Made by a program: the position numbers and the translations under genes
In this document: positions 3,706 to 29,512 of the stretch, in pieces
How positions within the stretch are numbered: position 1 is the stretch's first letter
Layout: every line of letters starts with the position of its first letter
Notes under the pieces: model-generated
What the model saw: only the letters and a program-made list of their open reading frames with translations
Told to the model about the DNA's origin: nothing
Databases searched by the model: none
IMG/VR virus record: IMGVR_UViG_3300017971_000641
Coordinates: 1-29,621 of that record
Origin: a virus
Strand: one strand, 5' to 3'
Length of the DNA: 29,621 nucleotides

Positions 3706-5088
3706 ATGAAAATACCTTTTACTGACTTACAGATTTCACCGGTTGGTGAAAAACAGCTTAATAGTGAAGACCAATATGTTACTTCACAAACAAAAGAATC
3801 AATGGACGCTAATTATATGACAGAGTTTGGTTCATACAATCCGCTAAAGCACAACATGGGATTATATGAGCTAATAAGAGAATTGATTCCATTCATTGAC
3901 ATTGCAATAACTAAACTTTCAAGATTGATTGGAAGCTTTGAAATAATAACAGACGACGAAAACTTAAAAAAAGATATTGATGACTTTAGGACTAATGTTA
4001 AAGTTAACTGGTTTGAACGTGGACTTGACAAATATATCATGGAACTTGTGGACGCTACTTTAACAAAAGGTGTTGGCTGGGGGGAAATAATACCGACTGA
4101 AAGTCTGGACAACATTTATAGATTGAAAATGGCAGAAAGTAAAAACTTGCGATTTATTTTTAAAGATGGTAAAATGTTACTTGCCGAAAAATCACAGGAT
4201 AGCTTGCACCCTAAAATATTGCCAAATCAAGATTTATTAACATATGTAAGCTTCAATACAAGAGAGGGACACCCGCAAGGTTATTCGCTTTTATATTCTC
4301 TTCCATTTGTAGCAGAAAACTTTATTAAACTTCATAACGTAATTAGAAATTTATCAGATCGAATCGGAGACCCGATTTTTGTTGTCTGGGTTGAGGGCGC
4401 AGCAAACGAAAAAGGGATGACCTCTGCAAAAAATATTGCATCTGGCCTTGCAACTGAAGTACAAAAAGCAATGAAAGAAAAAAAAGTTGGAAAGTCACGA
4501 GATATTTTTGCAGCTACACCGAACGGGGGTAAAATACATATTGACGTCGTAGGCGCTGACGGTTCAAAATTAATGAATATTGAATTCCCAATGAGATCGA
4601 CTCAGGAGCAACTTATGGCAGCAACGCATCTGCCGCCTTTTGTATTCGGAGCGTATAATTGGAATAGTAACTATAAAATGTCACAAGATCAGGTTGATAT
4701 GCTTATAAGTCAAATCAATTCTTATAGAGAGTCTTTAAATCCAATTATAGAAAAAATAATCGATTCTTTTTTAATCTATACTGGAAAATACGGGAGTAAA
4801 TGGAAATTTGAATGGAATCCTGTTAACATTATGGATGAGGTTGAATTATCAAGAGCGAAATTGAATTTTGCAACGGCAAGCGCAAAAGAAGTGGAAACCT
4901 TGTTAAAGCTTTACGAATTTAACATGCTAAGTGATGACGAGGTGATTGATAGATTAATTGGACTTGGATATGGGACAAAATTGTCCAAACAAGAATTGAA
5001 GGACAAAATACAAAGCATGAATTATATTCAAAGATCACAAGGTGGGGCGATCAGGGATTTAGTGAGGAGTCTCAAAAATGCAGAATAA
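3706..5088 (+). CDS. Portal protein
   Basis: A 460-aa protein in the portal position between large terminase and minor head protein, overlapping the latter by 11 bases. It is expected to form the dodecameric ring at the unique capsid vertex through which DNA enters and leaves. Recognisable features are the N-terminal YELIRELIPFIDIAITKLSRLIG segment, a wing-like beta region with VGWGEIIPTES, and HPQGYSLLYSLPFVAENFI, a conserved portal stem/clip-region pattern. The late part has a helical MSQDQVDMLISQINSYRESL segment. Overall it resembles DUF935/SPP1-type portals. A weak TTTAGG site precedes the ATG. Position plus these patterns make the call solid, although the precise Pfam family is uncertain. 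Confidence 0.88.
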   Translation: MKIPFTDLQISPVGEKQLNSEDQYVTSQTKESMDANYMTEFGSYNPLKHNMGLYELIRELIPFIDIAITKLSRLIGSFEIITDDENLKKDIDDFRTNVKVNWFERGLDKYIMELVDATLTKGVGWGEIIPTESLDNIYRLKMAESKNLRFIFKDGKMLLAEKSQDSLHPKILPNQDLLTYVSFNTREGHPQGYSLLYSLPFVAENFIKLHNVIRNLSDRIGDPIFVVWVEGAANEKGMTSAKNIASGLATEVQKAMKEKKVGKSRDIFAATPNGGKIHIDVVGADGSKLMNIEFPMRSTQEQLMAATHLPPFVFGAYNWNSNYKMSQDQVDMLISQINSYRESLNPIIEKIIDSFLIYTGKYGSKWKFEWNPVNIMDEVELSRAKLNFATASAKEVETLLKLYEFNMLSDDEVIDRLIGLGYGTKLSKQELKDKIQSMNYIQRSQGGAIRDLVRSLKNAE

Positions 5089-6112
5089 AACAGCATCTAT
5101 AATTAAGGGATTGTTGCCGCCACTTGATGAAGCTCAAAATCTATATGAAAAATATTATAAAAATTGTGGGTGTAATAAAGAACATTCTGGATTTAAAGTT
5201 GATAATCCCATTCGGCTTGAACATTATTTAGCATCAAGACAGCATAGAAACGCCCAGGTTCGTAAATACATGAATGAATTTTTTTTAACAATTCAAGAGG
5301 GTGTCACGTCGCTTGAAAAAGAATTGTTATATATTCTTAATCTTCCTGATATTGAGACGACTCGCAACTTTGTATTAGGTGCAGCAGAAAAGCCGAATTT
5401 AAGAAAAAAATTTGAGATCAACAAAAATCAGATTAATGCAATAAAAGAAGAGATTAAAGAAACGCAAAATTATTTTATTGGAAATAAAAACATAAAACAA
5501 ACTGATATAGAAGAAGAAGAAAATCCAGTTTATCAATTTTATATGTTATTATTTTTTGGGATATGGACACGTAAGCAAGTAATGGAATTTATACGACTTG
5601 GGAATTCTGGACTATCAGAAGAACAACTCAGAAACACAATTGTATCGCCGAACTTAAAAAATAAATTTATAAGCGCTGTAATTAACAGAGGTATCAAAAG
5701 TATTACAAATATGATTGGGAATCCAAAGTATGAATTCATAATAAACGGATTAAAGCGGCACGCTAAAGCAGGCTCTCACCCGTTTGACGTTGCAAAGTGG
5801 ATACATCAATATATTGGTGAAGGTGAACTTTGGAGATGGAACAGAATAGTTCGGTCGGAATCCACACTCGCACTTGAGGCAGCTTACGATGCTCAAAGCA
5901 ACGCTTCTGGAATTCAATATGACGAATGGAGTGCAGGCAGCGGCGCTTGTCCAATTTGCAGTTCACTTGATGGCTTAGTTTGGAAAAGAGGCGAGGGCGC
6001 TATTCCTGTTTCAGATACACATCCGCATTGCCTTTGTAGGCGTGTTGGTTATTATTCAACTAATAAAATTATTCAATCACGTTGGGAGGAGCCAAGCCCG
6101 TATAAAAATTAG
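5078..6112 (+). CDS. Minor head protein, Mu F / SPP1 gp7-like
   Basis: A head-morphogenesis protein, 344 aa. The C-terminal third carries the Phage_Mu_F signature: VRSESTLALEAAYDAQ followed by CPICSSLDG (C291, C294), then HPHCLCRR (C318, C320). These Cys/His residues probably bind zinc. The N-terminal two thirds are helical and include a CGCNKEH motif near residue 31. Proteins of this family attach to the portal and are taken into the capsid, in some phages being ejected with DNA. The start overlaps the portal gene end, which fits coupled expression. A strong hairpin begins on the last base of its TAG stop codon. Confidence 0.9.
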   Translation: MQNKTASIIKGLLPPLDEAQNLYEKYYKNCGCNKEHSGFKVDNPIRLEHYLASRQHRNAQVRKYMNEFFLTIQEGVTSLEKELLYILNLPDIETTRNFVLGAAEKPNLRKKFEINKNQINAIKEEIKETQNYFIGNKNIKQTDIEEEENPVYQFYMLLFFGIWTRKQVMEFIRLGNSGLSEEQLRNTIVSPNLKNKFISAVINRGIKSITNMIGNPKYEFIINGLKRHAKAGSHPFDVAKWIHQYIGEGELWRWNRIVRSESTLALEAAYDAQSNASGIQYDEWSAGSGACPICSSLDGLVWKRGEGAIPVSDTHPHCLCRRVGYYSTNKIIQSRWEEPSPYKN

Positions 6113-6141
6113 TCCATACGAAAAACACTTTTCATGTGGAC
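6112..6141 (+). terminator. 13-bp RNA hairpin at the end of the minor head gene
   Basis: The arms GTCCATACGAAAA (6112-6124) and TTTTCATGTGGAC (6129-6141) pair over 13 positions with one G-U wobble (6117/6136) and one C-A mismatch (6119/6134), closing on a 4-base loop ACAC. The stem starts on the stop codon of the minor head gene. No T-run follows (next bases CAAATAAAT), so it is not a canonical intrinsic terminator. It may be a partial attenuator, an RNA-processing site or a 3'-end stabiliser separating the portal block from the accessory island. The structure is directly visible; its role is inferred. Confidence 0.55.
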
Positions 6142-6244
6142 CAAATAAATAATATATGGGAAAAATAAAAAACATAATATAATATGCAAATTGGCATGCA
6201 AAAGAAAATTGATTGAAAAACAAATTAAAAAACAGGTCAATTAA

Positions 6245-6427
6245 ATGACAGCAGAAGATTTTAAAAATTTAAACAGATTATTTAAAGCATTAAAATTGTT
6301 GTCCAAAATACAAGATGAAATATTGGGAAATACACGAGAACAAATTGAGTTAAAAGAAATAACTAAAAAAGTTTTTATTGATCTTGCAATTTATATAAAA
6401 AAATATTTTCCAGAAGTTGAAAAATAA
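6245..6427 (+). CDS. Small helical hypothetical protein, 60 aa
   Basis: First gene after the 6112-6141 hairpin and a 103-base AT-rich stretch with no other feature. The product appears almost wholly alpha-helical with regular hydrophobic spacing (LNRLFKALKLLSKIQDEIL, then a second amphipathic helix ending in KKYFPEVEK), so it may form a helical hairpin or dimer. A weak AGGTC site lies upstream of the ATG. No family is recognised and nothing points to a function beyond its place at the head of the accessory island. Confidence 0.55.
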   Translation: MTAEDFKNLNRLFKALKLLSKIQDEILGNTREQIELKEITKKVFIDLAIYIKKYFPEVEK

Positions 6428-6451
6428 ATATAATAAGAACGAGGAAATAAA

Positions 6452-6772
6452 ATGGCAATATACAAAGCTGGAAAACTTAAAATAAAAGACCAAGAACACC
6501 TTGAGTTATTGTTTTATAGATATATCGCCGCGGCCGTATGCTATTACTTAACTTTCAATCCATTCGCAGCATCTTCAATGTTTAGATGCTTTGATGAAAT
6601 TTCCAATTGCAAAAAAATAAATATGAGATGGAAAAATAAATATTTTCCGATACAAAACTTAATGAGACTTGAAATGTTTCCACAACATGAAGTGGCTATA
6701 AAAAAGTTATCTGATAAAAATATTCGGGGCATTGCCAGATCATTAGTAAAATTACACGAACAGGAAAATTGA
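6452..6772 (+). CDS. Hypothetical protein, 106 aa
   Basis: Starts at ATG 6452 behind a good GAGGAAATAAA ribosome site and ends by overlapping the next start (ATGA type). It is mainly helical: an amphipathic N-terminus (KIKDQEHLELLFYRYIAAAV), a moderately hydrophobic segment (CYYLTFNPFAASSMFRCF) that is too polar to be a sure membrane span, and a basic C-terminal half. Three cysteines are scattered with no CxxC pair, unlike its downstream neighbours. Not recognised. Its tight coupling to the following Cys-rich gene suggests the two are expressed together. Confidence 0.6.
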   Translation: MAIYKAGKLKIKDQEHLELLFYRYIAAAVCYYLTFNPFAASSMFRCFDEISNCKKINMRWKNKYFPIQNLMRLEMFPQHEVAIKKLSDKNIRGIARSLVKLHEQEN

Positions 6773-6981
6773 TGAGTAAACCAAGCAGCTGCATAAATTG
6801 TATGTATTGGAATGTAAATAACAAAAGATGCGAAGCAGGTGCATGGCCGGGCGAAGTAGGCGAGCTTGAATATTGCGATTATAGAAGAACTATTTTTGAA
6901 ATAAGATCATTGGGATTGTTGCATTATAACAACGAGATTGGAATCAAAGAAGATAAAGAATTTAAAAATTTAGAAGAATAA
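6772..6981 (+). CDS. Small Cys-rich protein, putative metal binder (paralogue of 7035-7250)
   Basis: A 69-aa protein starting at ATG 6772, which overlaps the previous TGA; CAGGAAAA upstream is the ribosome site. The N-terminal half has four cysteines, C7, C10, C20 and C35, in the context SCINCMYWNVNNKRC then YCDYRR. The C-x-N-C-x-Y-[W/F] core with a third Cys nine residues later recurs in the product of 7035-7250, so the two look like paralogues. Zinc or iron-sulfur binding is likely from the Cys pattern, but the metal and the partner are unknown. It belongs to a run of Cys-rich genes spanning 6772-9097. Confidence 0.65.
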   Translation: MSKPSSCINCMYWNVNNKRCEAGAWPGEVGELEYCDYRRTIFEIRSLGLLHYNNEIGIKEDKEFKNLEE

Positions 6982-7034
6982 AATATGTAACCTTAAATAT
7001 AATTAATAGTGTTTTAGTAATATAAGGCATAAAT

Positions 7035-7250
7035 ATGAAACTTTTAAAAAGAGATAAATTGTTCATTTGTAAAAATTGTCTTTACTTTCGCCCGAAGGAA
7101 AAAAAGTGTATAGTTTATAATTTTAGCCGGCTTAATTGTGATTTGGCATGTAAGTCTTTTCTAAATTATTTTGAACTGAAGTTAAAAGAAAAAAAATATA
7201 ATATATTTTACAGGTTATTATATTTAATTAGACCTTACATGAGAGGGTAA
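7035..7250 (+). CDS. Small Cys-rich basic protein, putative metal binder
   Basis: A 71-aa protein preceded by AAGG nine bases before ATG 7035. The cysteines C12, C15, C25, C35 and C39 start with ICKNCLYF, and the C15-to-C25 spacing equals that of the 6772-6981 product (C10-C20), which supports common descent. The C-terminal half is very basic and aromatic (KLKEKKYNIFYRLLYLIRPYMRG) and may bind nucleic acid or membrane. The methyltransferase gene starts four bases after its stop. Function unknown; metal binding is an inference from the Cys pattern. Confidence 0.6.
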   Translation: MKLLKRDKLFICKNCLYFRPKEKKCIVYNFSRLNCDLACKSFLNYFELKLKEKKYNIFYRLLYLIRPYMRG

Positions 7251-7253
7251 AAT

Positions 7254-7739
7254 ATGAAATTAAATTTAGGCTGCGGGGAAAATAAAATAGCGGGGTTTAT
7301 AAATGTTGATATAAGAAAAGAAGTAAATCCAGACCAAGTTTGTGATATCAGGAAACTTGAATTTGTAGAAGATAGTTCATGCGAGACAATATATGCGAGC
7401 CACGTACTTGAACACTTTCCAGAATGGCAAGTCAGGCCTATTTTGTATGAATGGAAAAGTAAATTGCAAGAAAGTGGACAGTTAATTCTGGTATTACCAG
7501 ACTTTGAAGAAACTTGCAAATATTGTGGAATGGCGTTTGAGTCAAAGCAATATCATAAAGTAAATAGGCATGTTGGAAGCATTTTGGGAAATCAAGATTA
7601 TCCACAAAACTTTCATTTTACTTTGTTTTGGGACAAAAAGATTATTTCGATTCTTAAGGAAGTGGGATTCAGAGCTCCTTTTTGTGAAAAAAAATATATC
7701 GATACTTACTATTGTTTATATGCAAAAGGAATGAAATGA
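7254..7739 (+). CDS. SAM-dependent methyltransferase, class I
   Basis: A compact 161-aa Rossmann-fold methyltransferase. Motif I is LNLGCGENKIAGFINVDI near the N-terminus, with the glycine loop GCGENK and the acidic ribose-binding residue in NVDI. The later YASHVLEHFP segment is the typical post-motif strand of methyltransferase_11/UbiE-like enzymes, and SGQLILVLPDF is the conserved strand after the helix. It lacks DPPY/NPPY or PC motifs, so it does not look like a DNA base methyltransferase. A small molecule, sugar or protein target is more likely. The next gene overlaps its stop, and the GT9-like glycosyltransferase follows one small gene later, so a shared sugar or glycan target is plausible but unproven. 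Confidence 0.85.
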   Translation: MKLNLGCGENKIAGFINVDIRKEVNPDQVCDIRKLEFVEDSSCETIYASHVLEHFPEWQVRPILYEWKSKLQESGQLILVLPDFEETCKYCGMAFESKQYHKVNRHVGSILGNQDYPQNFHFTLFWDKKIISILKEVGFRAPFCEKKYIDTYYCLYAKGMK

Positions 7740-7894
7740 GAGTATTATGTAAACGATGTATGAAAGTGCATACAATTCCAAAAATAGACGAGAAAACTTT
7801 CAAATGCAAGTGCGGAGCTTCACCGTTTATTTGGGAAGAGAATCAGGAAATCGTAAAACATCTAAAAAATATAATAAAACAAGAGAGGAAATAA
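7736..7894 (+). CDS. Zinc-ribbon microprotein, 52 aa
   Basis: Starts at ATG 7736, overlapping the methyltransferase stop (ATGA), with AGGAATGAA upstream. The same frame continues further upstream, but only inside the methyltransferase. Cysteines C5, C8, C24 and C26 (VLCKRCMK, then FKCKCGAS) form a zinc-ribbon-like knuckle pair. The rest is a short Glu/Lys-rich helix (ENQEIVKHLKNIIKQERK). It lies between methyltransferase and glycosyltransferase and shares the CK-x-C style with the glycosyltransferase's own N-terminal ribbon. It could be a small adaptor for these enzymes, but nothing proves this. Confidence 0.65.
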   Translation: MRVLCKRCMKVHTIPKIDEKTFKCKCGASPFIWEENQEIVKHLKNIIKQERK

Positions 7895-7895
7895 T

Positions 7896-8816
7896 ATGTA
7901 TTTTATTTGTAAGGAATGTAAAAGGCAAATTTCTATAATGAAATATGATGTTCCTTTTTGGGAAAAGCTCGGCTTTGTGTGCCACAATTGTTATACAATA
8001 GTTTCATCACACACAAGGAATCCAAAATTAGAAAACAAAACAACAGTTTTCACGGTATCTGGAAAAGCGCTGGGTGATTTCATTAACTTTACAAGTATTA
8101 AAAATTATTATCCTCAAGATAATCCTGATGAAAAAGTAATATTTTTAACCGACTGGCTGAGTTACGACGATATAATAAGAATATACAATCCCGGAAAAAT
8201 ATTTTGGTCTAATATTGCTGCTGATCCATATGACTGCTTAACTGACAGATATATCGTTATGAACAAGGAAAAAGCTTACTGGTACAATATGATGAATGAA
8301 GTTAGAAATTATGCTTCTCAAAATAGATTCCCAATATTGCCATTCCCAATAAGTATTAATCCTTGTATGATACCTAAAGAAAAATATTTTGTAGTTCACT
8401 TTAGAAATATTCATGACATTAAAAAGGGCACTGATAAAAATATTAATAAATTTCAAGCTAAAGAAATTATGGATATTTGTTTGTCAACTGGCGCAACATT
8501 CGTTTTAATTGGAAATGATGAAATATATGATGAAGAGTTATTGGAATGGTGTAACGATAAAGTATTAAACTTAAAACACAAATTAACACTGTCACAAATA
8601 AGATATGTTATAAAACACGCTCAGGGATATGTTGGCTCAGATTCTGGCTTGGCACACCTTGCCGGGACAGTTAATCAAGATATATTTTTATTTAATCAAG
8701 TAATAGGCTGGGAGCCTGTCACAATTAATTCAGATGTTCAGGGGCTACAAAAGCGAGAAATGACGCAGGAAAATATCAACACTTATTTAACTAAATTTAT
8801 TAAAAATAGAATGTAA
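7896..8816 (+). CDS. GT9-like glycosyltransferase with N-terminal zinc ribbon
   Basis: A 306-aa fusion starting behind GAGAGGAAATA. Residues 1-35 carry a zinc ribbon (C5, C8 and C29, C32: FICKECKRQ, then CHNC). The remainder resembles glycosyltransferase family 9/heptosyltransferases of the GT-B fold. It shows an N-terminal Rossmann strand and loop (VFTVSGKALGDFINFTSI), KYFVVHFRN at the start of the second Rossmann domain, ATFVLIGND, and the family's hallmark VGSDSGLAHLAG (S248, D249, S250, H254), which contacts the nucleotide-sugar diphosphate. GT9 enzymes normally act on lipopolysaccharide core. Placement between portal and protease genes suggests a virion, host-surface or DNA target instead. 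The terminal stop sits inside a small AT hairpin. Fold call is good; substrate unknown. Confidence 0.75.
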   Translation: MYFICKECKRQISIMKYDVPFWEKLGFVCHNCYTIVSSHTRNPKLENKTTVFTVSGKALGDFINFTSIKNYYPQDNPDEKVIFLTDWLSYDDIIRIYNPGKIFWSNIAADPYDCLTDRYIVMNKEKAYWYNMMNEVRNYASQNRFPILPFPISINPCMIPKEKYFVVHFRNIHDIKKGTDKNINKFQAKEIMDICLSTGATFVLIGNDEIYDEELLEWCNDKVLNLKHKLTLSQIRYVIKHAQGYVGSDSGLAHLAGTVNQDIFLFNQVIGWEPVTINSDVQGLQKREMTQENINTYLTKFIKNRM

Positions 8817-8829
8817 AAGTTTTTTACAT
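8811..8829 (+). other. Perfect 8-bp AT-rich inverted repeat over the glycosyltransferase stop
   Basis: ATGTAAAA (8811-8818) and TTTTACAT (8822-8829) are perfect complements around a 3-base loop and include the TAA stop of the glycosyltransferase. It is weak (seven of eight pairs are A-T or loop-proximal) and has no downstream T-run. It may slow ribosomes or polymerase before the zinc-ribbon and protease genes, or be chance in AT-rich DNA. Confidence 0.25.
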
Positions 8830-8881
8830 CTTGGATTTAAAATATTAAAATAATAATTTGCAATAAACGTGGAGGAAATTT

Positions 8882-9097
8882 ATGTATTATACATGCAAAA
8901 AATGCGGCACTATTTTTACAGCATCAAAGTCAGGAAAGACACCGTGCCCAAAATGTAAAAGTAAAAATATAAAACAATATCAAGAAGGCGATAGAAATAA
9001 ATATATAAAACCTGAATCAAAGTCAACATTCACAGCTCACAAGCCAAAATCAAAGTTTGGCGATAAAAATCTGATGGACATTCAAAAAGATGCATGA
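8882..9097 (+). CDS. Zinc-ribbon protein upstream of the prohead protease
   Basis: A 71-aa protein with one of the best ribosome sites in the window (GGAGGAAATTT before ATG 8882). The N-terminal zinc ribbon is clear: C5, C8 (YTCKKCGT) and C22, C25 (PCPKCKSK), an FmdB/rubredoxin-like arrangement. The C-terminal half is basic, Ser/Lys-rich and probably disordered (KPESKSTFTAHKPKSK). Its end overlaps the protease start by eight bases. The strong site and coupling suggest abundant expression with the capsid genes. It is the fifth CxxC-bearing product in a row within this island. Confidence 0.7.
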   Translation: MYYTCKKCGTIFTASKSGKTPCPKCKSKNIKQYQEGDRNKYIKPESKSTFTAHKPKSKFGDKNLMDIQKDA

Positions 9098-10466
9098 ATA
9101 TAAGTTTTTATCCGAAACAAGGCGTAGTTATCGCTTCAAATGGCCACGAGGTAAACATCTAAAAGATTCCAACATTAGAGTTGAGGGCGATGTTGTTATT
9201 TTCTCAAAAGATTTGTTTAAAAGCGCAAAATCTGCCGAGGAATTTATTAAAAGCCAAAGCGATACGATACAAGAAAAAAACCTTGTGAGTTCTGAAATTA
9301 AAACATTAGACGTTGAAAAAGAATTTTCAAAATTTGAAAAGTTTTTCACTAAAGATCACGACTTGAAAGCAGGCGACTTTGTTGTGTTTTCTGGGTGGGT
9401 GGCAAACAATATGATTGATAGAGATACTGAAAGATTTTCTTTACCGGTTCTGAAAAGTTTTGCCAAGACCGCAGTTGGACGCCCGATTATAAAATCACAT
9501 GACGTACGGGAGTTTGGAGACGCAAAAATTTACAATGCTCGCATTGAAACCGTTACTTTTGAAGAAGGAATGAAAATGTTGGGGCACGTTCCTTTTAGGG
9601 GTTATGCTGACTTAAGTAAAACAATAGCTCAAAAGGACAAGGGAATTCATTTTTTGGTCGTCGACTATTATATGTTGAAATCAGATACCGACAAGGTGAA
9701 ACGAATACAAGCCGGATTAATTAAAGACATGTCGGTTGGTTTTAGAGCGCCAGTATTAACGCCAATGAATGGCAATGCAGAATCAAGCAAAGACGAAAAC
9801 GATATATTATATTGGGAATATCAAAACTCAAAAGAGAGGGAATCTGAAATATCTGAAATATCGCATGTTTATACTGGGGCACAATACGGAGCTGTAACAA
9901 AAAATTTCAATATTAAAAAAGATTTTAAAACAGAAAGCAAAAAGATGGAAGTAAAATTAACAGCATTAAGTATTTCAAAAGAAATAGATCCAGAAGAAAA
10001 TTTTGAAAAATCCGTCAAGGAATTTGCAAACGAAATTGACGAAGCAGTATTGAAAATTCAAAAAGATCAAGACACCGTTAAAATTAGTAACGACGAACTT
10101 AAGAATAAAATCAAAGCTATTGAAAGTGTTTTCGGAGAAGATTATGATCTGGAAACACTCAAAGAAATTAAGAAAAGAGCCGACGAGTATAAGAAAAACC
10201 TCGTTGATGAATGTATTAAATATAGTGGTTTGCTTGGTATTGTAAAAAAAGAAGACGCTGAAAACAAAAAAGCTTTATACAATACTTTACCAGTGACAGT
10301 TATCCAAGGCATGGTAAACGATTTTAAGACTTTACATAAAAAGCAAAATCCTCCGGCGTCACAAACGGAAGAAAACAATGCCGACAAAAATGCCGCAGAA
10401 GACAACGATCTTCCAAAGGCAAAAACAATAACAAGACATGATCATAGATACCAAAATGAGGTTTAA
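9090..10466 (+). CDS. Prohead protease with C-terminal scaffold-like coiled coil
   Basis: A 458-aa protein upstream of the decoration and capsid genes. Residues about 95-240 look like a caudoviral prohead protease: FSGWVANNMIDRDTERF, then GRPIIKSHD with candidate catalytic H137, and KDMSVGFRAP with candidate nucleophile S215. This H...S order fits the herpesvirus-protease-like fold of phage maturation proteases. The region after residue 280 is Lys/Glu-rich and predicted coiled coil, ending in a disordered Asn/Glu/Asp tail. That is the layout of a scaffold domain fused to the protease, as in phages with no separate scaffold gene; none is visible here. The protein should fill the procapsid, cleave itself and the capsid delta domain, and leave. 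Confidence 0.82.
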   Translation: MHEYKFLSETRRSYRFKWPRGKHLKDSNIRVEGDVVIFSKDLFKSAKSAEEFIKSQSDTIQEKNLVSSEIKTLDVEKEFSKFEKFFTKDHDLKAGDFVVFSGWVANNMIDRDTERFSLPVLKSFAKTAVGRPIIKSHDVREFGDAKIYNARIETVTFEEGMKMLGHVPFRGYADLSKTIAQKDKGIHFLVVDYYMLKSDTDKVKRIQAGLIKDMSVGFRAPVLTPMNGNAESSKDENDILYWEYQNSKERESEISEISHVYTGAQYGAVTKNFNIKKDFKTESKKMEVKLTALSISKEIDPEENFEKSVKEFANEIDEAVLKIQKDQDTVKISNDELKNKIKAIESVFGEDYDLETLKEIKKRADEYKKNLVDECIKYSGLLGIVKKEDAENKKALYNTLPVTVIQGMVNDFKTLHKKQNPPASQTEENNADKNAAEDNDLPKAKTITRHDHRYQNEV

Positions 10467-10469
10467 ATT

Positions 10470-10922
10470 ATGGCACGACGCAGTTTAGGAAATGGAGATC
10501 AGGGACCGCAATTAGATATCGCTCTCGTTCCTGACTCCACTTTTGAAACAGAAATAGCAGCATTAATTGCTGCCGGAACTCAGGTAGCCGGCAAACTTGT
10601 CGCTTTAACATTCTCAAATAATTACGAATGTACAAGTCCAGCAGCAAACGCAATTCCAATGGGTAAAATCATTGATTGGATTAAAGACCCGGTTTATGGC
10701 TATATATTAACAGTCAGAATGTTTAATTATATAGATCAAAATAACAACAATCATACGGCCGTTAAAATTGTTGAAATTCCGTATGAAGGGACTATTGCGT
10801 TACAGGATTCAATCATTGTTTATAATTCCGACTACGATTCAGTCGACGACGGCACTTCTGGTGGCTGGGGTGCTGTAATATCAAAAAATACTACATCGGC
10901 AAAAGTCGACGTCTTAGTTTAG
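10470..10922 (+). CDS. Head decoration-type protein
   Basis: A 150-aa beta-rich protein between protease and major capsid genes, the position used for lambda gpD-like or DUF2190-like head stabilisation proteins. It begins MARRSLGNGDQGPQLDIALV and alternates short strands with Gly/Asp/Asn turns. It contains PMGKIIDWIKDPVYGYILTVRMFNY and a late WGAVISKNTTSAKVDVLV strand pair resembling the closing strands of decoration proteins. It has no signal peptide, unlike the second decoration-type candidate at 12376-13338. The start lies three bases after the protease stop. The role is inferred mostly from position and composition. Confidence 0.6.
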   Translation: MARRSLGNGDQGPQLDIALVPDSTFETEIAALIAAGTQVAGKLVALTFSNNYECTSPAANAIPMGKIIDWIKDPVYGYILTVRMFNYIDQNNNNHTAVKIVEIPYEGTIALQDSIIVYNSDYDSVDDGTSGGWGAVISKNTTSAKVDVLV

Positions 10923-10931
10923 GAGCAACAA

Positions 10932-12041
10932 ATGGAAAATACAACTGAAAAACTCAAACAAATATTTAATATTGAAAAGGGCATGTATACAGAAGCTATT
11001 AATTCTGGTAAAACTTTCGGGATGTGGCTGGAAGATTATAGAGTCGACAAGGGCATGGAGCCAACAATTTACCAAGACTTGACAAATTCCGAAGTTCATG
11101 CTTTAAAGAAAAAAATCAAAGCAGCTGGAGAGAAAGTTCCATTAACTACATTTGAAGAAATTTTAAAAGCCTACGATATACGTACTTACGGCCCGCAAAC
11201 AGATAGAGTAGAAAAGTTTTTTGCAACAAGTGACACGAGCGTTTTATTTCCTGAATACCTTGCAACTCAAGTATACGCAGGAATAATTCAAGGCGGCCTC
11301 GTAGATCAATTTATCGCCACCACGACTAATATTTCAGGCGAAGATTTTAGAAAAGTTTATTTGCAAGATGTTGAGACGGAACGTCAATTATCTATTCGTG
11401 GCGCAAGCGGTGAGTTTCCAAGATCACAAATTAAAGTTGGTCGTCAGACGGTTAACTTGGGATATTATGGCAGAGCAGTTGAGTTTTCATATGCCACTAT
11501 GTCGCAAACTCCATTAAACGTCGTTTCAAAAATGATGCAGCGAATTGGCATGCAGATAGATGTTGATGAAACAGACGATATGATTTACACTCTCTTGAAT
11601 GGTGATGGAAACAGTAACGGACTTGAGGCAGACCAAACAAAAAATCCAGCGACAACGGCCACAATCACAAAAACAGACGTTATCACTTTTACAAATGCGC
11701 TTCCGTCAGGTTATCAGCTGGATAAATTTGTTGGTCGTGATACATATATTCAAAAATTCTGGGACGCACTGTCTGACATGACGAATCCAATGGCGCAATG
11801 GGGTGTGACTGGTTTAACTTTACCAATTGGTTATAAATGGGAACGGTCTGTTTTAACGGCAGATTATTTGCTTGGTGTTGACTCGCGCTATGCAGTGGGC
11901 AAAATCACTAATGATGCCTTAAGCTTAACTGAATCAGATAAAATCATTGACAAGCACCAAGTTTTAACTGTTATATCTAAAAGAACCGCATTCGATATAA
12001 TTGACCAAGATGCAATTGGATGCTTAGATTGTGCATTTTAA
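10932..12041 (+). CDS. Major capsid protein, HK97 fold
   Basis: A 369-aa capsid protein behind AGGAGCAACAA. The first about 90 residues are helical and charged (a delta or scaffold-like arm, with YRVDKGMEPTIYQDLTNSEVHALKKK) and are probably removed by the protease upstream. The body has the expected HK97-fold order: an N-arm, an E-loop region around VETERQLSIRGASGEFP, a long spine helix near PLNVVSKMMQRIGMQIDVDETDDMIYTLL, and a P-domain/A-domain end with GYKWERSVLTADYLLGVDSRYAVGKI. Position, size and pattern agree. The C-terminus ends in two cysteines four residues apart (IGCLDCAF), unusual enough to raise the possibility of disulfide or metal stabilisation between subunits. Assembled in the cytoplasm around portal and scaffold. 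Confidence 0.88.
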   Translation: MENTTEKLKQIFNIEKGMYTEAINSGKTFGMWLEDYRVDKGMEPTIYQDLTNSEVHALKKKIKAAGEKVPLTTFEEILKAYDIRTYGPQTDRVEKFFATSDTSVLFPEYLATQVYAGIIQGGLVDQFIATTTNISGEDFRKVYLQDVETERQLSIRGASGEFPRSQIKVGRQTVNLGYYGRAVEFSYATMSQTPLNVVSKMMQRIGMQIDVDETDDMIYTLLNGDGNSNGLEADQTKNPATTATITKTDVITFTNALPSGYQLDKFVGRDTYIQKFWDALSDMTNPMAQWGVTGLTLPIGYKWERSVLTADYLLGVDSRYAVGKITNDALSLTESDKIIDKHQVLTVISKRTAFDIIDQDAIGCLDCAF

Positions 12042-25658: not shown

Positions 25659-26954
25659 ATGAAAAAAATAATAACAATATGGATTCTGCTTGTAATAAGT
25701 ATATTTTATTTATATGCCCAACAGGTAATACAATACCGGTCGCAAAGATTTGATTTATCAATTTTAGTAGACGATACAACTTTTGTGGCAGACTCCACGA
25801 CTTATTTATTTAAGGACGGCTCAAATAATTTAAAATTTGTTGATGCAGTAGTAGGCGCAAAAACACTAACAGAACTATCAACGACAACACTTGATTCCGA
25901 TTTTGTAAGTTTCACGTCAGACACCTTTTATATAAATGATACAAACACAAAGGTAACAGAGGACGGCTCAAATAATTTAATTTTTGTTGATGCTGTTACG
26001 GGAACTAAGACACTCGCAGAACTATCAACGACAACACTTGATTCCGATTTTGTTTCTTTTACAAGTGATACTTTTTATATAAACGACACTAACACAAAGG
26101 TAACAGAAGACGGCTCAAATAATTTAATTTTTGTTGATGCTGTTACAGGAACTAAGACTTTGGCAGAGCTGACAGCGACAACATCACTTGACTCCGATTT
26201 TGTAAGTTTTACAAGCGACACATTTTATATAAATGATACTAATACCAAAATCACTGAAGACGGTTCAAACAATTTAATTTTTGTTGACGCTGTGACAGGA
26301 ACTAAGACACTCGCAGAACTATCCGCGGGTGGTAGTGCAGATAGTTCTTTTAAAAAAATAACAGCTGATACAGTGGGAGCAATTGATGACACAACAGTAA
26401 CTTTTATAAATCATATAGCATTAACAGACGATAAAAATATTATATTGCAAGACAGTTCTACGGTCTGGCAGGTATTAACGTGTAATTTTCCGTATGGATG
26501 GTCAACTGGTCCAGATTGGGCGACAAGTTACGGTGGGTGGCTTTTTGCAAGCTCAGGAACAGAACAAGTATTTTTTAATTTTAGGCTTCCTGAAACTTGG
26601 AAAGAAGGCTCTACTATTTATCCAATGATTGGGTGGCAAGCCGCCGTCACAAGTACAGGTGACGCCTATTGGAGATTTGCTTACCGTTGGGTGGACATAG
26701 ATTCAACAGAAGAAGGGACTTTAACAAATTTAGATATTTTAACGGCAGGGACAGGGACAGCATTTGTTCACCAAGAAGCTTTATTTGCCGGTATTTCTGG
26801 AACAGGCAAACATGTCGGAAGCAACATTAGTGGAATATTGGCAAGACTCGGAAGTGAAGGAGACGACGATCTAGCTGGAGATGCGCTGTTGAAAACTATT
26901 AATATAATTATCGAATGCGACAGATATGCGGCATCTGGAGCAAGAGAAAAATAA
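25659..26954 (+). CDS. Fibre-like protein with signal peptide and tandem repeats
   Basis: A 431-aa protein starting behind TGAGGAATTTAAA. Residues 1-20 are a clear Sec signal peptide (MKKIITIWILLVISIFYLYA) with Q directly after the predicted cleavage. Then follow one degenerate and three near-identical 49-50-residue repeats, each with LDSDFVSFTSDTFYINDTNT and DGSNNLIFVDAVTGTKTLAE, probably forming a fibrous beta shaft. After residue about 222 the repeats stop and a longer unique region begins (NFPYGWSTGPDWATSYGGWL, FFNFRLPETWKEGSTIYPMIGWQ). It is Trp/aromatic-rich and looks like a jelly-roll head or carbohydrate-binding domain. The place after the tail tip suggests a tail fibre, but the signal peptide suggests export. 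Both readings are open. Confidence 0.65.
   Translation: MKKIITIWILLVISIFYLYAQQVIQYRSQRFDLSILVDDTTFVADSTTYLFKDGSNNLKFVDAVVGAKTLTELSTTTLDSDFVSFTSDTFYINDTNTKVTEDGSNNLIFVDAVTGTKTLAELSTTTLDSDFVSFTSDTFYINDTNTKVTEDGSNNLIFVDAVTGTKTLAELTATTSLDSDFVSFTSDTFYINDTNTKITEDGSNNLIFVDAVTGTKTLAELSAGGSADSSFKKITADTVGAIDDTTVTFINHIALTDDKNIILQDSSTVWQVLTCNFPYGWSTGPDWATSYGGWLFASSGTEQVFFNFRLPETWKEGSTIYPMIGWQAAVTSTGDAYWRFAYRWVDIDSTEEGTLTNLDILTAGTGTAFVHQEALFAGISGTGKHVGSNISGILARLGSEGDDDLAGDALLKTINIIIECDRYAASGAREK
25881..26324 (+). repeat. Three 147-150-bp tandem coding repeats
   Basis: Units start at 25881, 26028 and 26175; the first two are 147 bp and the last 150 bp, with one extra Ser codon. The encoded residues are nearly identical, but the DNA differs at many third positions (for example TCAAATAAT against TCAAACAAT), showing selection on the protein. 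A more degenerate unit precedes them from about 25770. Such arrays can expand or contract by recombination and change shaft length. Confidence 0.85.
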
Positions 26955-26971
26955 TTTTTCCGGAGAATAGC

Positions 26972-27559
26972 ATGAAAAATTCACTATTAATTTTTTTATT
27001 TCTAACAATATTGGGAATGTTTATTCTTGGTCAATTGGCGACAGATACAAGCGGAAACAGAGTTTTCTTAAAAGCAAATCCACAGACCGGCGCACTTATA
27101 ACAATGGAATATCACAACCACGAATGGATAGTTGGAAAACGCTATTATCATTCAAGCATAAACAGAGTTTCAGCGAACGACACTTTGGTTTTAGGAATCA
27201 CAACGCCAGATAATAATGATATAATTCATTTGTCATGGAATATTAATGGAACAAAACAAATAATCGGAAAAATATTTGAAAATGCGAGTTTTGAACAACA
27301 AGCTTGCATTCCGATGAAAAATTTAAATTTTAATTATCTTGATCAGAGTAATACAAAAATATGTAATTTAACTAATTATAAAATAGGTGATGAGATTGGC
27401 GGCGAATTAAGTGGAGGCTTAACGTCGCCGGGAAATATAAAAACTGATGAGGGATTGATTTTAAAAAACAATGAAAAATATATTTTAATTATTTATTCGC
27501 CTGTTTTAAATGATATTTCTGTAACATTAAAATGGTCAGAACATAGGCCAATACATTAA
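26972..27559 (+). CDS. Signal-peptide beta-rich protein, paralogue of 27617-28225
   Basis: A 195-aa protein. ATG 26972 is chosen over an earlier in-frame start at 26915 because CGGAG lies just before it, and because the product then opens with MKNSLLIFLFLTILGMFILG, a signal peptide with predicted cleavage ILG|QLA. The mature part shares its order of motifs with the next gene: GNRVFLKANPQTGALITMEYHNHEW, then YYHSS, SANDTLVLGITTPDN, and ILKNNEKYILIIYS near the end. Such a beta-sandwich occurs in many phage virion proteins, but usually without a signal peptide. Surface or virion role unknown. Confidence 0.62.
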   Translation: MKNSLLIFLFLTILGMFILGQLATDTSGNRVFLKANPQTGALITMEYHNHEWIVGKRYYHSSINRVSANDTLVLGITTPDNNDIIHLSWNINGTKQIIGKIFENASFEQQACIPMKNLNFNYLDQSNTKICNLTNYKIGDEIGGELSGGLTSPGNIKTDEGLILKNNEKYILIIYSPVLNDISVTLKWSEHRPIH

Positions 27560-27616
27560 CTACATAATAGTCTACTAATAGTTGACTGATATCTATAAAT
27601 TTAAACTGAGGACTTT

Positions 27617-28225
27617 ATGAAAAAAATAATATTATTTTTGCTTTTAAGCTTTATTATTTCTTTTGCTCAAACGGCGCATAATGGTAATGGTGAAAGAGTT
27701 TATCTTAAAGTTGACAACTCTACACACGCTTTAAATATGATTGACTATGAACATCACGAAATACACTCAGGGAGCCACTATTTTATTGCAACATCTGACA
27801 CAATGGCATCAGGAGACACTCTTTTTTTTGAGGTGGTTGTGCCAGATACAACAAGAGAAGCCCATTTTTTATTTACTTATACAAGTTCAGGATTATTAAA
27901 AGCAAATGTTAGAGAAGGTACAACTATTACTGGCGGCGACACATTAACAACTTATAATTCAAACCGCAACAGCAGTAAATCATCCATGCTCACAATTGTT
28001 GGGGGTGGGCAAGCGGCTTGCAATCTTGACTCAGCGGGAACAGCTTTATTATCTTTAATTCATGGCTCCTCAGACAATAAGAATCCCTTTGGTGGTTCTG
28101 GTGGAAGAGGTTCAGAAATAATTTTAAAAAACAACACAAGTTATGTATTTGAGTTTATAAGTGGAGCAGATAATAATTATTTTATGGGCGAAGCAGAATG
28201 GTACGAACATATTCCAAAGGATTGA
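27617..28225 (+). CDS. Signal-peptide beta-rich protein, paralogue of 26972-27559
   Basis: A 202-aa protein behind CTGAGGACTTT. MKKIILFLLLSFIISFA followed by QTAHN is a Sec signal peptide with Gln at the new N-terminus. The mature part GERVYLKVDNSTHALNMIDY, EHHEIHSGSHYFIATSD, GDTLFFEVVVPDT, ILKNNTSYVFEFISGADNNY and WYEHIPKD aligns with the preceding gene over its full length. I recognise the YEHHEIHSG ... ILKNNTSY ... WYEH pattern as a widespread phage virion protein type, often near capsid or tail genes. A Gly-rich loop (NPFGGSGGRGSE) is unique to this copy. The pair may differ in target. The 57-base gap before it holds no other feature. Confidence 0.65.
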   Translation: MKKIILFLLLSFIISFAQTAHNGNGERVYLKVDNSTHALNMIDYEHHEIHSGSHYFIATSDTMASGDTLFFEVVVPDTTREAHFLFTYTSSGLLKANVREGTTITGGDTLTTYNSNRNSSKSSMLTIVGGGQAACNLDSAGTALLSLIHGSSDNKNPFGGSGGRGSEIILKNNTSYVFEFISGADNNYFMGEAEWYEHIPKD

Positions 28226-28226
28226 T

Positions 28227-28628
28227 ATGGTTGATAACACAGACGTTAAAATCGGAAAACTTGAAGAAGCGCAAAGACTTTGCAAAGAAGATACTCAAAA
28301 ACAAATTGCTTTATTATGGGAATCAAATCAACGATTAAAAAAATTGATTTTCGGAAATGGTGATGAAGGAATTAAAGATAAAATTGCAGTTCTGCTTAAA
28401 GAAATCAAAGGCTTTTCAAGCGATCACATTAAGCTAGAAAGTCTGGAGGATGAAATTTTGAAACTGCAATCAAGACATGAACGAATTGAAGATTTTATTG
28501 GAAAAACAGAAAGAACTTTAAATTATTTCTGGGTAAAATTAGTAGGTTTATTGTTCGCACTAATTTTATCAATGTTTGGTTTATTTTATTTTTTAATCAA
28601 AACATTAACAGAGCATCAAATCCAATAG
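28227..28628 (+). CDS. XhlA-like coiled-coil membrane protein (holin accessory)
   Basis: A 133-aa protein. ATG 28227 is used because AAAGG lies six bases before it; an upstream in-frame ATG at 28161 lies inside the previous gene. Residues 1-95 are a helical, coiled-coil-like region (KLEEAQRLCKEDTQKQIALLWESN; LESLEDEILKLQSRHERIEDFI) with a GNGDEG turn. Residues about 101-124 are one strong membrane span (FWVKLVGLLFALILSMFGLFYFLI). This order, coiled coil then C-terminal span, is that of XhlA-type haemolysin/holin partners. It sits beside a DUF5675-like gene in the expected lysis position. A spanin-like role is the alternative. Confidence 0.65.
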   Translation: MVDNTDVKIGKLEEAQRLCKEDTQKQIALLWESNQRLKKLIFGNGDEGIKDKIAVLLKEIKGFSSDHIKLESLEDEILKLQSRHERIEDFIGKTERTLNYFWVKLVGLLFALILSMFGLFYFLIKTLTEHQIQ

Positions 28629-28636
28629 GAAAAAAA

Positions 28637-29512
28637 ATGATATTTTATTTGCATAGAAAAGTAATTAATGGCAAGGGTGTCCTGGGTACCATATTATACA
28701 ATAGACAACACCCATATTTAGCCGCAAATTATAATAATGAATCCAATATTGAAGTCTGTAAAACTTTAGAACTCCCATGGAATTATAACAAAAGAAATAT
28801 TTCTTGCATTCCGGCCGGAATTTATAAATTTTATTATGATAGAGATATCGGTAGATTTTGGGTTTTAAATGTTCTTGACAGGACGAACATACAAATTCAT
28901 ATTGGGAATAATGCTCTTGTCAACAATCCAAAATCAGATACAACCGGTTGTATATTAACAGGGATGAGATGGAATTCAAGTCACACTTTTATATACGATT
29001 CTGAAAAGGGTTTTAACAGATTAAAAGAATTATGTTTCGGTGATTCTTATCAAGTTGCAGAACATACATTGATAATAATTGATAAATCATATAAAACATA
29101 TTTACCGAATTTAAACTCTAATATTGATATGTATCCGATGGAAAAGTGGACCCATATTTTTAAACCACATTTGCCATTAGAATATACACCGCAACAAATT
29201 TTAAAAAAGGGAATTGCGGAGTCGTACAAAGGAGGAAAATTTTGGTATAATTTAATACACGAAGAAAAATGGAAACTTTGGTCTGGATATATACTTGGAA
29301 CTGCATCTGTGATTTTTTCTTTTTTTAATCCAGCTGTCAGTCAAGTTTTGGCCGGAGGGAGTCTTGGGCTTATTGGCGTTGGCGGAATTCAAGGTGCAAA
29401 ACACAGCGAGCCGTCGTGGGATGGGAAAACAGGAAAATTATATATAATTGTAAAAATGGTGCTTGATACAATAAAAGAAATAATTTTAAAAATTTCCTCT
29501 AAAAATGAATAG
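28637..29512 (+). CDS. DUF5675-like protein with C-terminal membrane hairpin, putative lysis protein
   Basis: A 291-aa fusion. The N-terminal about 140 residues resemble DUF5675, a phage domain often near lysis genes: SCIPAGIYKFYYDRDIGRFW, TNIQIHIGNNALV and SDTTGCILTGMRW. The HxGN...GCI pairing recalls the active-site layout of L,D-transpeptidase-like enzymes, with candidate residues H and C, but this is an analogy. Residues about 215-252 are a hydrophobic hairpin rich in Gly and Ala (SGYILGTASVIFSFF; VLAGGSLGLIGVGG), suggesting membrane insertion. The combination of a possible cell-wall enzyme and a membrane hairpin in one chain suits lysis. The last codons run into the 18-bp tandem repeat. 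No classical endolysin is visible in the window. Confidence 0.6.
   Translation: MIFYLHRKVINGKGVLGTILYNRQHPYLAANYNNESNIEVCKTLELPWNYNKRNISCIPAGIYKFYYDRDIGRFWVLNVLDRTNIQIHIGNNALVNNPKSDTTGCILTGMRWNSSHTFIYDSEKGFNRLKELCFGDSYQVAEHTLIIIDKSYKTYLPNLNSNIDMYPMEKWTHIFKPHLPLEYTPQQILKKGIAESYKGGKFWYNLIHEEKWKLWSGYILGTASVIFSFFNPAVSQVLAGGSLGLIGVGGIQGAKHSEPSWDGKTGKLYIIVKMVLDTIKEIILKISSKNE

Follow-up and report, generated by a model that had tools for sequence, protein, structure and literature searches.

The sequence analyzed here (the window) is a virus record of 29,621 bases from IMG/VR (IMGVR_UViG_3300017971_000641), probably a fragment. A co-directional run of genes in it encodes a ParB-like protein, a TET-associated glycosyltransferase (TAGT), the small and large terminases, the portal and minor head proteins, and two open reading frames (ORFs) of 60 and 106 amino acids. 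Downstream, the run resumes with a probable prohead protease, a 150-residue protein, the major capsid protein and tail genes. Between the two parts lies an island of six genes (6772-9097), previously described in a note made from the sequence alone, and all six were confirmed as open frames. On the plus strand they encode, in order, two small Cys-rich proteins, zr1 (6772-6981) and zr2 (7035-7250), a predicted class I S-adenosylmethionine (SAM)-dependent methyltransferase (7254-7739), a third small Cys-rich protein, zr3 (7736-7894), a GT9-type glycosyltransferase that begins with a four-cysteine ribbon (7896-8816), and zr4, a small putative zinc-ribbon protein with a basic tail (8882-9097). The stop of the 106-residue ORF overlaps the start of zr1 at 6772 (TGATG), the methyltransferase stop and the zr3 start share the ATGA at 7736-7739 that the note had pointed out, and the 3' end of zr4 overlaps the protease start at 9090.

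Cysteine accounts for 32 out of 730 residues in the six island proteins, compared with 52 out of 8661 in a test set of 29 other proteins from the window. The earlier note considered all four small proteins to be CxxC zinc ribbons. All of them do contain a CxxC, but only zr4 has two pairs and resembles a zinc-ribbon family, Zn_ribbon_8, with a score that stays below the cut-off (E 2.3e-5). The others have one pair each and four (zr1), five (zr2) or four to five (zr3) cysteines. A single pair is unsurprising given this Cys content, since it was reached in 762, 1245 and 1020 of 5000 residue shuffles of the three proteins; the count in zr4 was reached in 35 of 5000. The cysteine-bearing parts of the island proteins are putative metal binders.

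Predicted folds of the two enzymes

The 306-residue glycosyltransferase matches the Pfam family Glyco_transf_9 (PF01075) over residues 189-261 (E 4.2e-8, 33.3 bits against a curated cut-off of 22). D61, K181 and DSGLAH (249-254), a motif of the D-S/T-G-x-x-H type, align with other GT9 enzymes and are kept; we take D61, K181 and D249-H254 to be catalytic positions, from work on WaaC. As the note had stated, the protein starts with C5, C8, C29 and C32, which form the only CxxC pairs in the whole sequence (5-8 and 29-32). All four are invariant in the GT9 homologue of a related phage (locus L174, described below), which scores 21.1 bits on PF01075, just under the cut-off. The GT9 equivalogs of NCBIfam were far under their cut-offs for the window enzyme, and comparison of its sequence with solved structures gave weak matches only, mostly to the ribbon part.

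The note had proposed a fold search for GT-B similarity, and a model built from an alignment of 11 sequences (A4) has a predicted GT-B fold, with a mean predicted local distance difference test (pLDDT) of 71.5 and a predicted template modelling score (pTM) of 0.72. The best solved Foldseek matches were the heptosyltransferase WaaF (1psw, E 2.0e-7), the GT9 structure 3tov, TibC (4rap, E 1.1e-6, and 4rb4) and WaaC. In VIA-align, 1psw reached Z 13.2 (root-mean-square deviation (rmsd) 6.5, 207 residues aligned, 14% identity) and 3tov Z 12.8, and the matches listed in a viral structure library include proteins from uncultured phages with the names RfaF-like, family 9 or Aah/TibC. The fold alone cannot fix the glycosyltransferase family, because UDP-N-acetylglucosamine 2-epimerases, which are GT-B-like, score as high as 1psw. 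PF01075, the GT-B fold and the DSGxxH-type motif are shared with the lipopolysaccharide heptosyltransferases WaaC and WaaF, from which the window enzyme differs by its low identity, its added N-terminal ribbon and its location in a phage head operon.

The 161-residue methyltransferase matches PHROG 5399 (SAM methyltransferase, E 8.7e-7) and scores 19.4 bits on Methyltransf_11, under the cut-off of 21.2. Its model (pLDDT 75) predicts a class I methyltransferase, the best solved match being 3dli (Z 12.9, rmsd 3.3, 136 residues aligned), and its look-alikes in the viral library include phage methyltransferases; comparison of the sequence with solved structures gave no useful match. We found neither the DNA-methylase motif IV ([DNS]PP[YFWH]) nor any of the C5 motifs searched, in agreement with the note, which had called it a SAM methyltransferase lacking DNA-methylase motifs.

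The island slot in related phages

Scanning the viral_contigs collection with a DNA pattern that represents the GT9 motif returned eight stretches (four also from another scan), among them L174. Its record, G049 (35,477 bases), has the same gene order as the window from ParB through the tail genes, with a different large terminase. Between its minor head and protease genes lie a ribbon-GT9 gene (8550-9416), a methyltransferase gene overlapping it by ATGA (9416-9877), a ribbon (9881-10036), a 68-residue ORF and a further ribbon (10194-10481). Thus the GT9, the methyltransferase and ribbons occupy the same slot of a second phage, linked and not scattered, which bears out the suggestion that they form one unit, in a single close relative. 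Identities between the two islands are 35% for the GT9, 42% for the methyltransferase, 32% for zr3 (over 50 residues, to 9881-10036, E 5e-5) and 32% for zr4 (over 60 residues, to 10194-10481, E 2e-10). No counterpart of zr1 or zr2 was detected in G049.

In the structural genes, identities are 43% for the portal (window 3706-5088), 38% for the minor head protein at the left border of the slot (5078-6112; PHROG 115, E 1e-9), 34% for the protease at its right border (9090-10466), 60% for the 150-residue protein, 45% for the major capsid protein (10932-12041; Phage_capsid_4, E 4.5e-11), 53% for the probable tail tube and 27% for the tape measure. The GT9 and the methyltransferase have therefore diverged about as much as the portal, minor head, protease and capsid proteins (34-45%), which disfavors a recent independent arrival of the two enzymes in the two phages. 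The protease is assigned by position and has no Pfam match; in five records of gut phages (L178-L182), its homologues are encoded between the portal and major capsid genes, and in Microcystis phage MACPNOA1 (L186) they follow the portal. The five gut records share the portal, protease and capsid proteins with the window, the portal being followed directly by the protease, and MACPNOA1 carries other genes in this gap. Hence the island appears to be accessory to the head module, but not very recent in its two carriers. Peptide patterns retrieved no close relatives of the window GT9, methyltransferase or capsid protein from viral_contigs. Two labels in MACPNOA1 (4296-9250) are probably misannotations: the product called glycerone kinase matches the portal plus minor head proteins, and the one called nicotinate-nucleotide diphosphorylase matches the protease.

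In several pairings, the ribbons, fused or free, are more alike than the spacing of their cysteines would explain. The score of zr2 against zr1 was reached in 3 of 300 shuffles, that of the window GT9 ribbon against a free ribbon of G049 (zrB) in 3 of 300 Cys-preserving shuffles, and that of zr3 against the window GT9 ribbon in 10 of 300. As 28 pairs were compared, this likeness in sequence is suggestive only.

Possible targets of the island enzymes

The earlier note named a virion protein, the DNA or the host surface as possible targets. Its interpretation holds in part, in that the evidence is strongest for the first of these, a virion protein. We consider it somewhat more probable than the opposite that the island is an independently assembled virion-decoration (glycosylation) cassette expressed with the head genes. 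The shared slot between minor head and protease in the syntenic G049 supports this reading, as do the overlaps that tie the unit together (GT9 with methyltransferase in G049, methyltransferase with zr3 and zr4 with protease in the window) and the conservation of D61, K181 and DSGLAH. The fold matches also include TibC, a protein-glycosylating enzyme whose assembly and substrate recognition depend on a Cys4 iron finger (PMC4358343). The autotransporter heptosyltransferases TibC and Aah share a GT9-like GT-B fold and a Cys4 motif with the window enzyme, but the TibC cysteines (339, 342, 358 and 370) belong to a C-lobe insertion (PMC4358343), whereas those of the window enzyme are N-terminal and no such C-lobe finger is present in it.

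Virion glycosylation is known mainly from mycobacteriophages, and a further argument comes from Cluster O of these phages. They encode an O-methyltransferase, two glycosyltransferases and a putative N-acetylglucosaminyltransferase between portal and protease; the enzymes were detected in infected cells and not identified in virions, and capsid modification was proposed (PMC4351075). They modify the capsid and the tail tube according to PMC11600133 (citing Freeman et al. 2023), with glycans at the C-termini of both proteins (PMC12619734). The JangDynasty and Catdawg records, inspected directly, have this gene arrangement. This Corndog-type cassette and the island are alike in having closely packed methyltransferase and glycosyltransferase genes between the portal or minor head gene and the protease gene. 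They differ in their enzymes: the former combines a TylF-type methyltransferase (as in JangDynasty) with glycosyltransferases that have GT2/GT25-like Pfam matches (one has none), whereas the island has a GT9 and also Cys ribbons, which the excerpts on the Corndog-type cassette do not mention. A functional and positional analogue has therefore been published, contrary to the view in the note that the combination is not a described system. What is new here is the ribbon-GT9/methyltransferase cassette, on which our searches of the open-licence literature turned up no publication; a methyltransferase and glycosyltransferase cassette in the Cluster O slot was already known.

Virion decoration is also supported by other phage contigs in which GT9 genes adjoin virion genes. 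These contigs were found via the GT9 motif or Pfam searches and represent a sample, not a census. The GT9 gene directly follows the protease and capsid genes in L177, stands ahead of the genes for head closure, neck and tape measure proteins in L175, lies near a tail protein gene in L164 (near-copies L163 and L165), and follows the tail fibre and GT2-like genes in G037. The L162 gene follows the tape measure gene and encodes a GT9 joined to an O-methyltransferase of the TylF family, to which the JangDynasty O-methyltransferase also belongs. The recurrence of Cys ribbons N-terminal to the GT9 domain points the same way: among 11 virus proteins, they occur in the window, G049, L162, L176 and G062b and are absent from L163-L165, L175, L177 and G062a, as well as from three cellular GT9s (for both G062 proteins, the scan covered residues 1-100; the truncated G037 protein was left out). 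A profile scan (A1) of viral_contigs gave 122 stretches with none confirmed, the same scan of genome_contigs gave 74 stretches with three distant cellular GT9s, and neither the window nor the L174 protein found a GT9 in the phages collection. A further contig has tandem GT9 genes in its tail region (L191, G062 26178-29203), the second of which joins a weak zinc-ribbon match, a GT9 and a GT1-type domain.

If the island decorates virions, the ribbon-GT9 would move a sugar, perhaps heptose from the nucleotide-sugar pool of the host, onto a virion protein during assembly, and the methyltransferase would then methylate the transferred sugar. Candidate acceptors are the capsid protein, a decoration or connector protein, or the tail tube protein. 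Fused and free ribbons may help to bind the substrate or hold the enzymes together, and the decorated particle, once released, would benefit in some way, for instance through a change in its adsorption, stability or recognition. A broader version is doubtful: phages may repeatedly have built ribbon-GT9 enzymes which, together with free ribbon paralogues and a sugar methyltransferase, make up a modular kit that anchors a heptosyltransferase-type enzyme on assembling virions and yields methyl-heptosylated particles by a route unrelated to that of the mycobacteriophages.

Several observations weigh against virion decoration. The island is carried by only one close relative, in which the order of methyltransferase and GT9 is swapped, and the six more distant relatives (the five gut records and MACPNOA1) lack it. 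GT9 genes are rare, being present in two of 49 TAGT-centred records (window included) and in one of 50 records chosen from 80 terminase loci. We recognized no structural gene next to the GT9 of L176, and the GT9 of G037 sits with GT2-like genes of the O-antigen-conversion type. The first 40 residues of the glycosyltransferase model, which include the ribbon, are of low confidence (block means 43-54), and the capsid and probable tail tube proteins show no obvious added Ser/Thr-rich tail. Finally, the window enzymes gave no blastp alignment better than E 0.15 with JangDynasty 33-36, and hhalign probabilities were at most 1.4%. Homology to the Corndog-type gp35-gp38 enzymes was thus not detected in this comparison, and the likeness to Cluster O lies in position and kind, with no demonstrable common descent.

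The main alternative is DNA hypermodification, in which the GT9-type enzyme would add a sugar to a hydroxylated base, the TAGT would extend it and the methyltransferase would cap it. The best argument for it, unmentioned in the note, is the TAGT itself (583-1500; PF20691, E 5.8e-44), encoded on the same contig in a DNA modification slot and adjoining the ParB-like gene with which it is paired (3-623; PHROG 620, E 2.3e-28; incomplete at the contig end). It has relatives among the proteins of Aeromonas and Vibrio phages, several of them annotated as beta-glucosyl-HMC-alpha-glucosyltransferase. Solitary TAGTs were reported in 288 of 753 phage genomes, with partner transferases suggested, and the T4 alpha- and beta-glucosyltransferases are GT-B enzymes (PMC13216743), as the island enzyme is predicted to be. 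The argument is weakened, and the reading lowered from our first favorite to an unlikely one, because G049 keeps the island with no TAGT in its 35.5-kb record and has a ParB fused to an N6/N4 DNA methylase instead. In this one comparison, the DNA slot and the island vary independently. Moreover, a GT9 occurs in only one of the 48 other TAGT-bearing records, and the Tet_JBP and thymidylate-synthase families occur in none of the 49 records including the window, most of which are fragments (Tet_JBP had no match in any control genome either).

GT9 enzymes normally build lipopolysaccharide, specifically its core, and WaaF and WaaC are among the best fold matches, so the enzymes could alter lipopolysaccharide or another surface glycan of the host and exclude competing phages. 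We regard this as quite unlikely: the genes are inside the head operon in both phages, where late expression would be expected, and none of the six matched a flippase or a GtrA/GtrC-type conversion protein in Pfam or PHROG. It is more improbable still that the ribbons are not adaptors but Com-like RNA-binding translation activators of modification genes, as in com-mom of phage Mu, for although zr3 overlaps the methyltransferase and directly precedes the GT9 gene, one of the ribbons is part of the GT9 enzyme, the two free ribbons of G049 come after the enzyme genes, and no Com-family Pfam match was found for zr1-zr3 (E up to 1) or among the zr4 matches listed (25 of 28). Such a role would be compatible with virion decoration as a detail.

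If virion decoration is correct, particle glycosylation has evolved separately in phages that are not related to each other, by way of unrelated enzymes that came to occupy the same slot. The slot could then serve as a marker in the search for enzymes that modify particles, and the ribbon-GT9 architecture as a signature to search with. The island would also be a concrete test of why phages decorate their particles even where they face no animal immune system.

Other features of the window and of G049

The 106-residue ORF before the island (6452-6772, plus strand, like all window genes given coordinates above) was assigned no Pfam or PHROG family, and PADLOC returned nothing of note. The window major capsid protein ends in GCLDCAF (12020-12041), a CxxC that is absent from the capsid protein of the relative. 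In L174, the minor head gene (6561-8294 plus the next 250 bases), read by eye, has an intein-like insertion at a conserved HPHC motif, with an endonuclease-like part, and its frame breaks ahead of the C-terminal end. Upstream of its small terminase gene, at the position of ParB and TAGT in the window, L174 carries a PAPS-reductase-like gene and the ParB-DNA methylase fusion (493-2856; N6_N4_Mtase, E 1.1e-19). The pairing of ParB-like and TAGT genes is itself recurrent, as 55 out of 80 TAGT loci (L082-L161) have a ParB-like ORF ending at most 300 bases upstream. Three adjacent late genes of the window (25659-28225) encode proteins with signal-peptide-like starts, the first of which contains, by eye, a stretch of about 45 residues present three times. 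The AQ-type ends hint that the host may belong to the Bacteroidota group.

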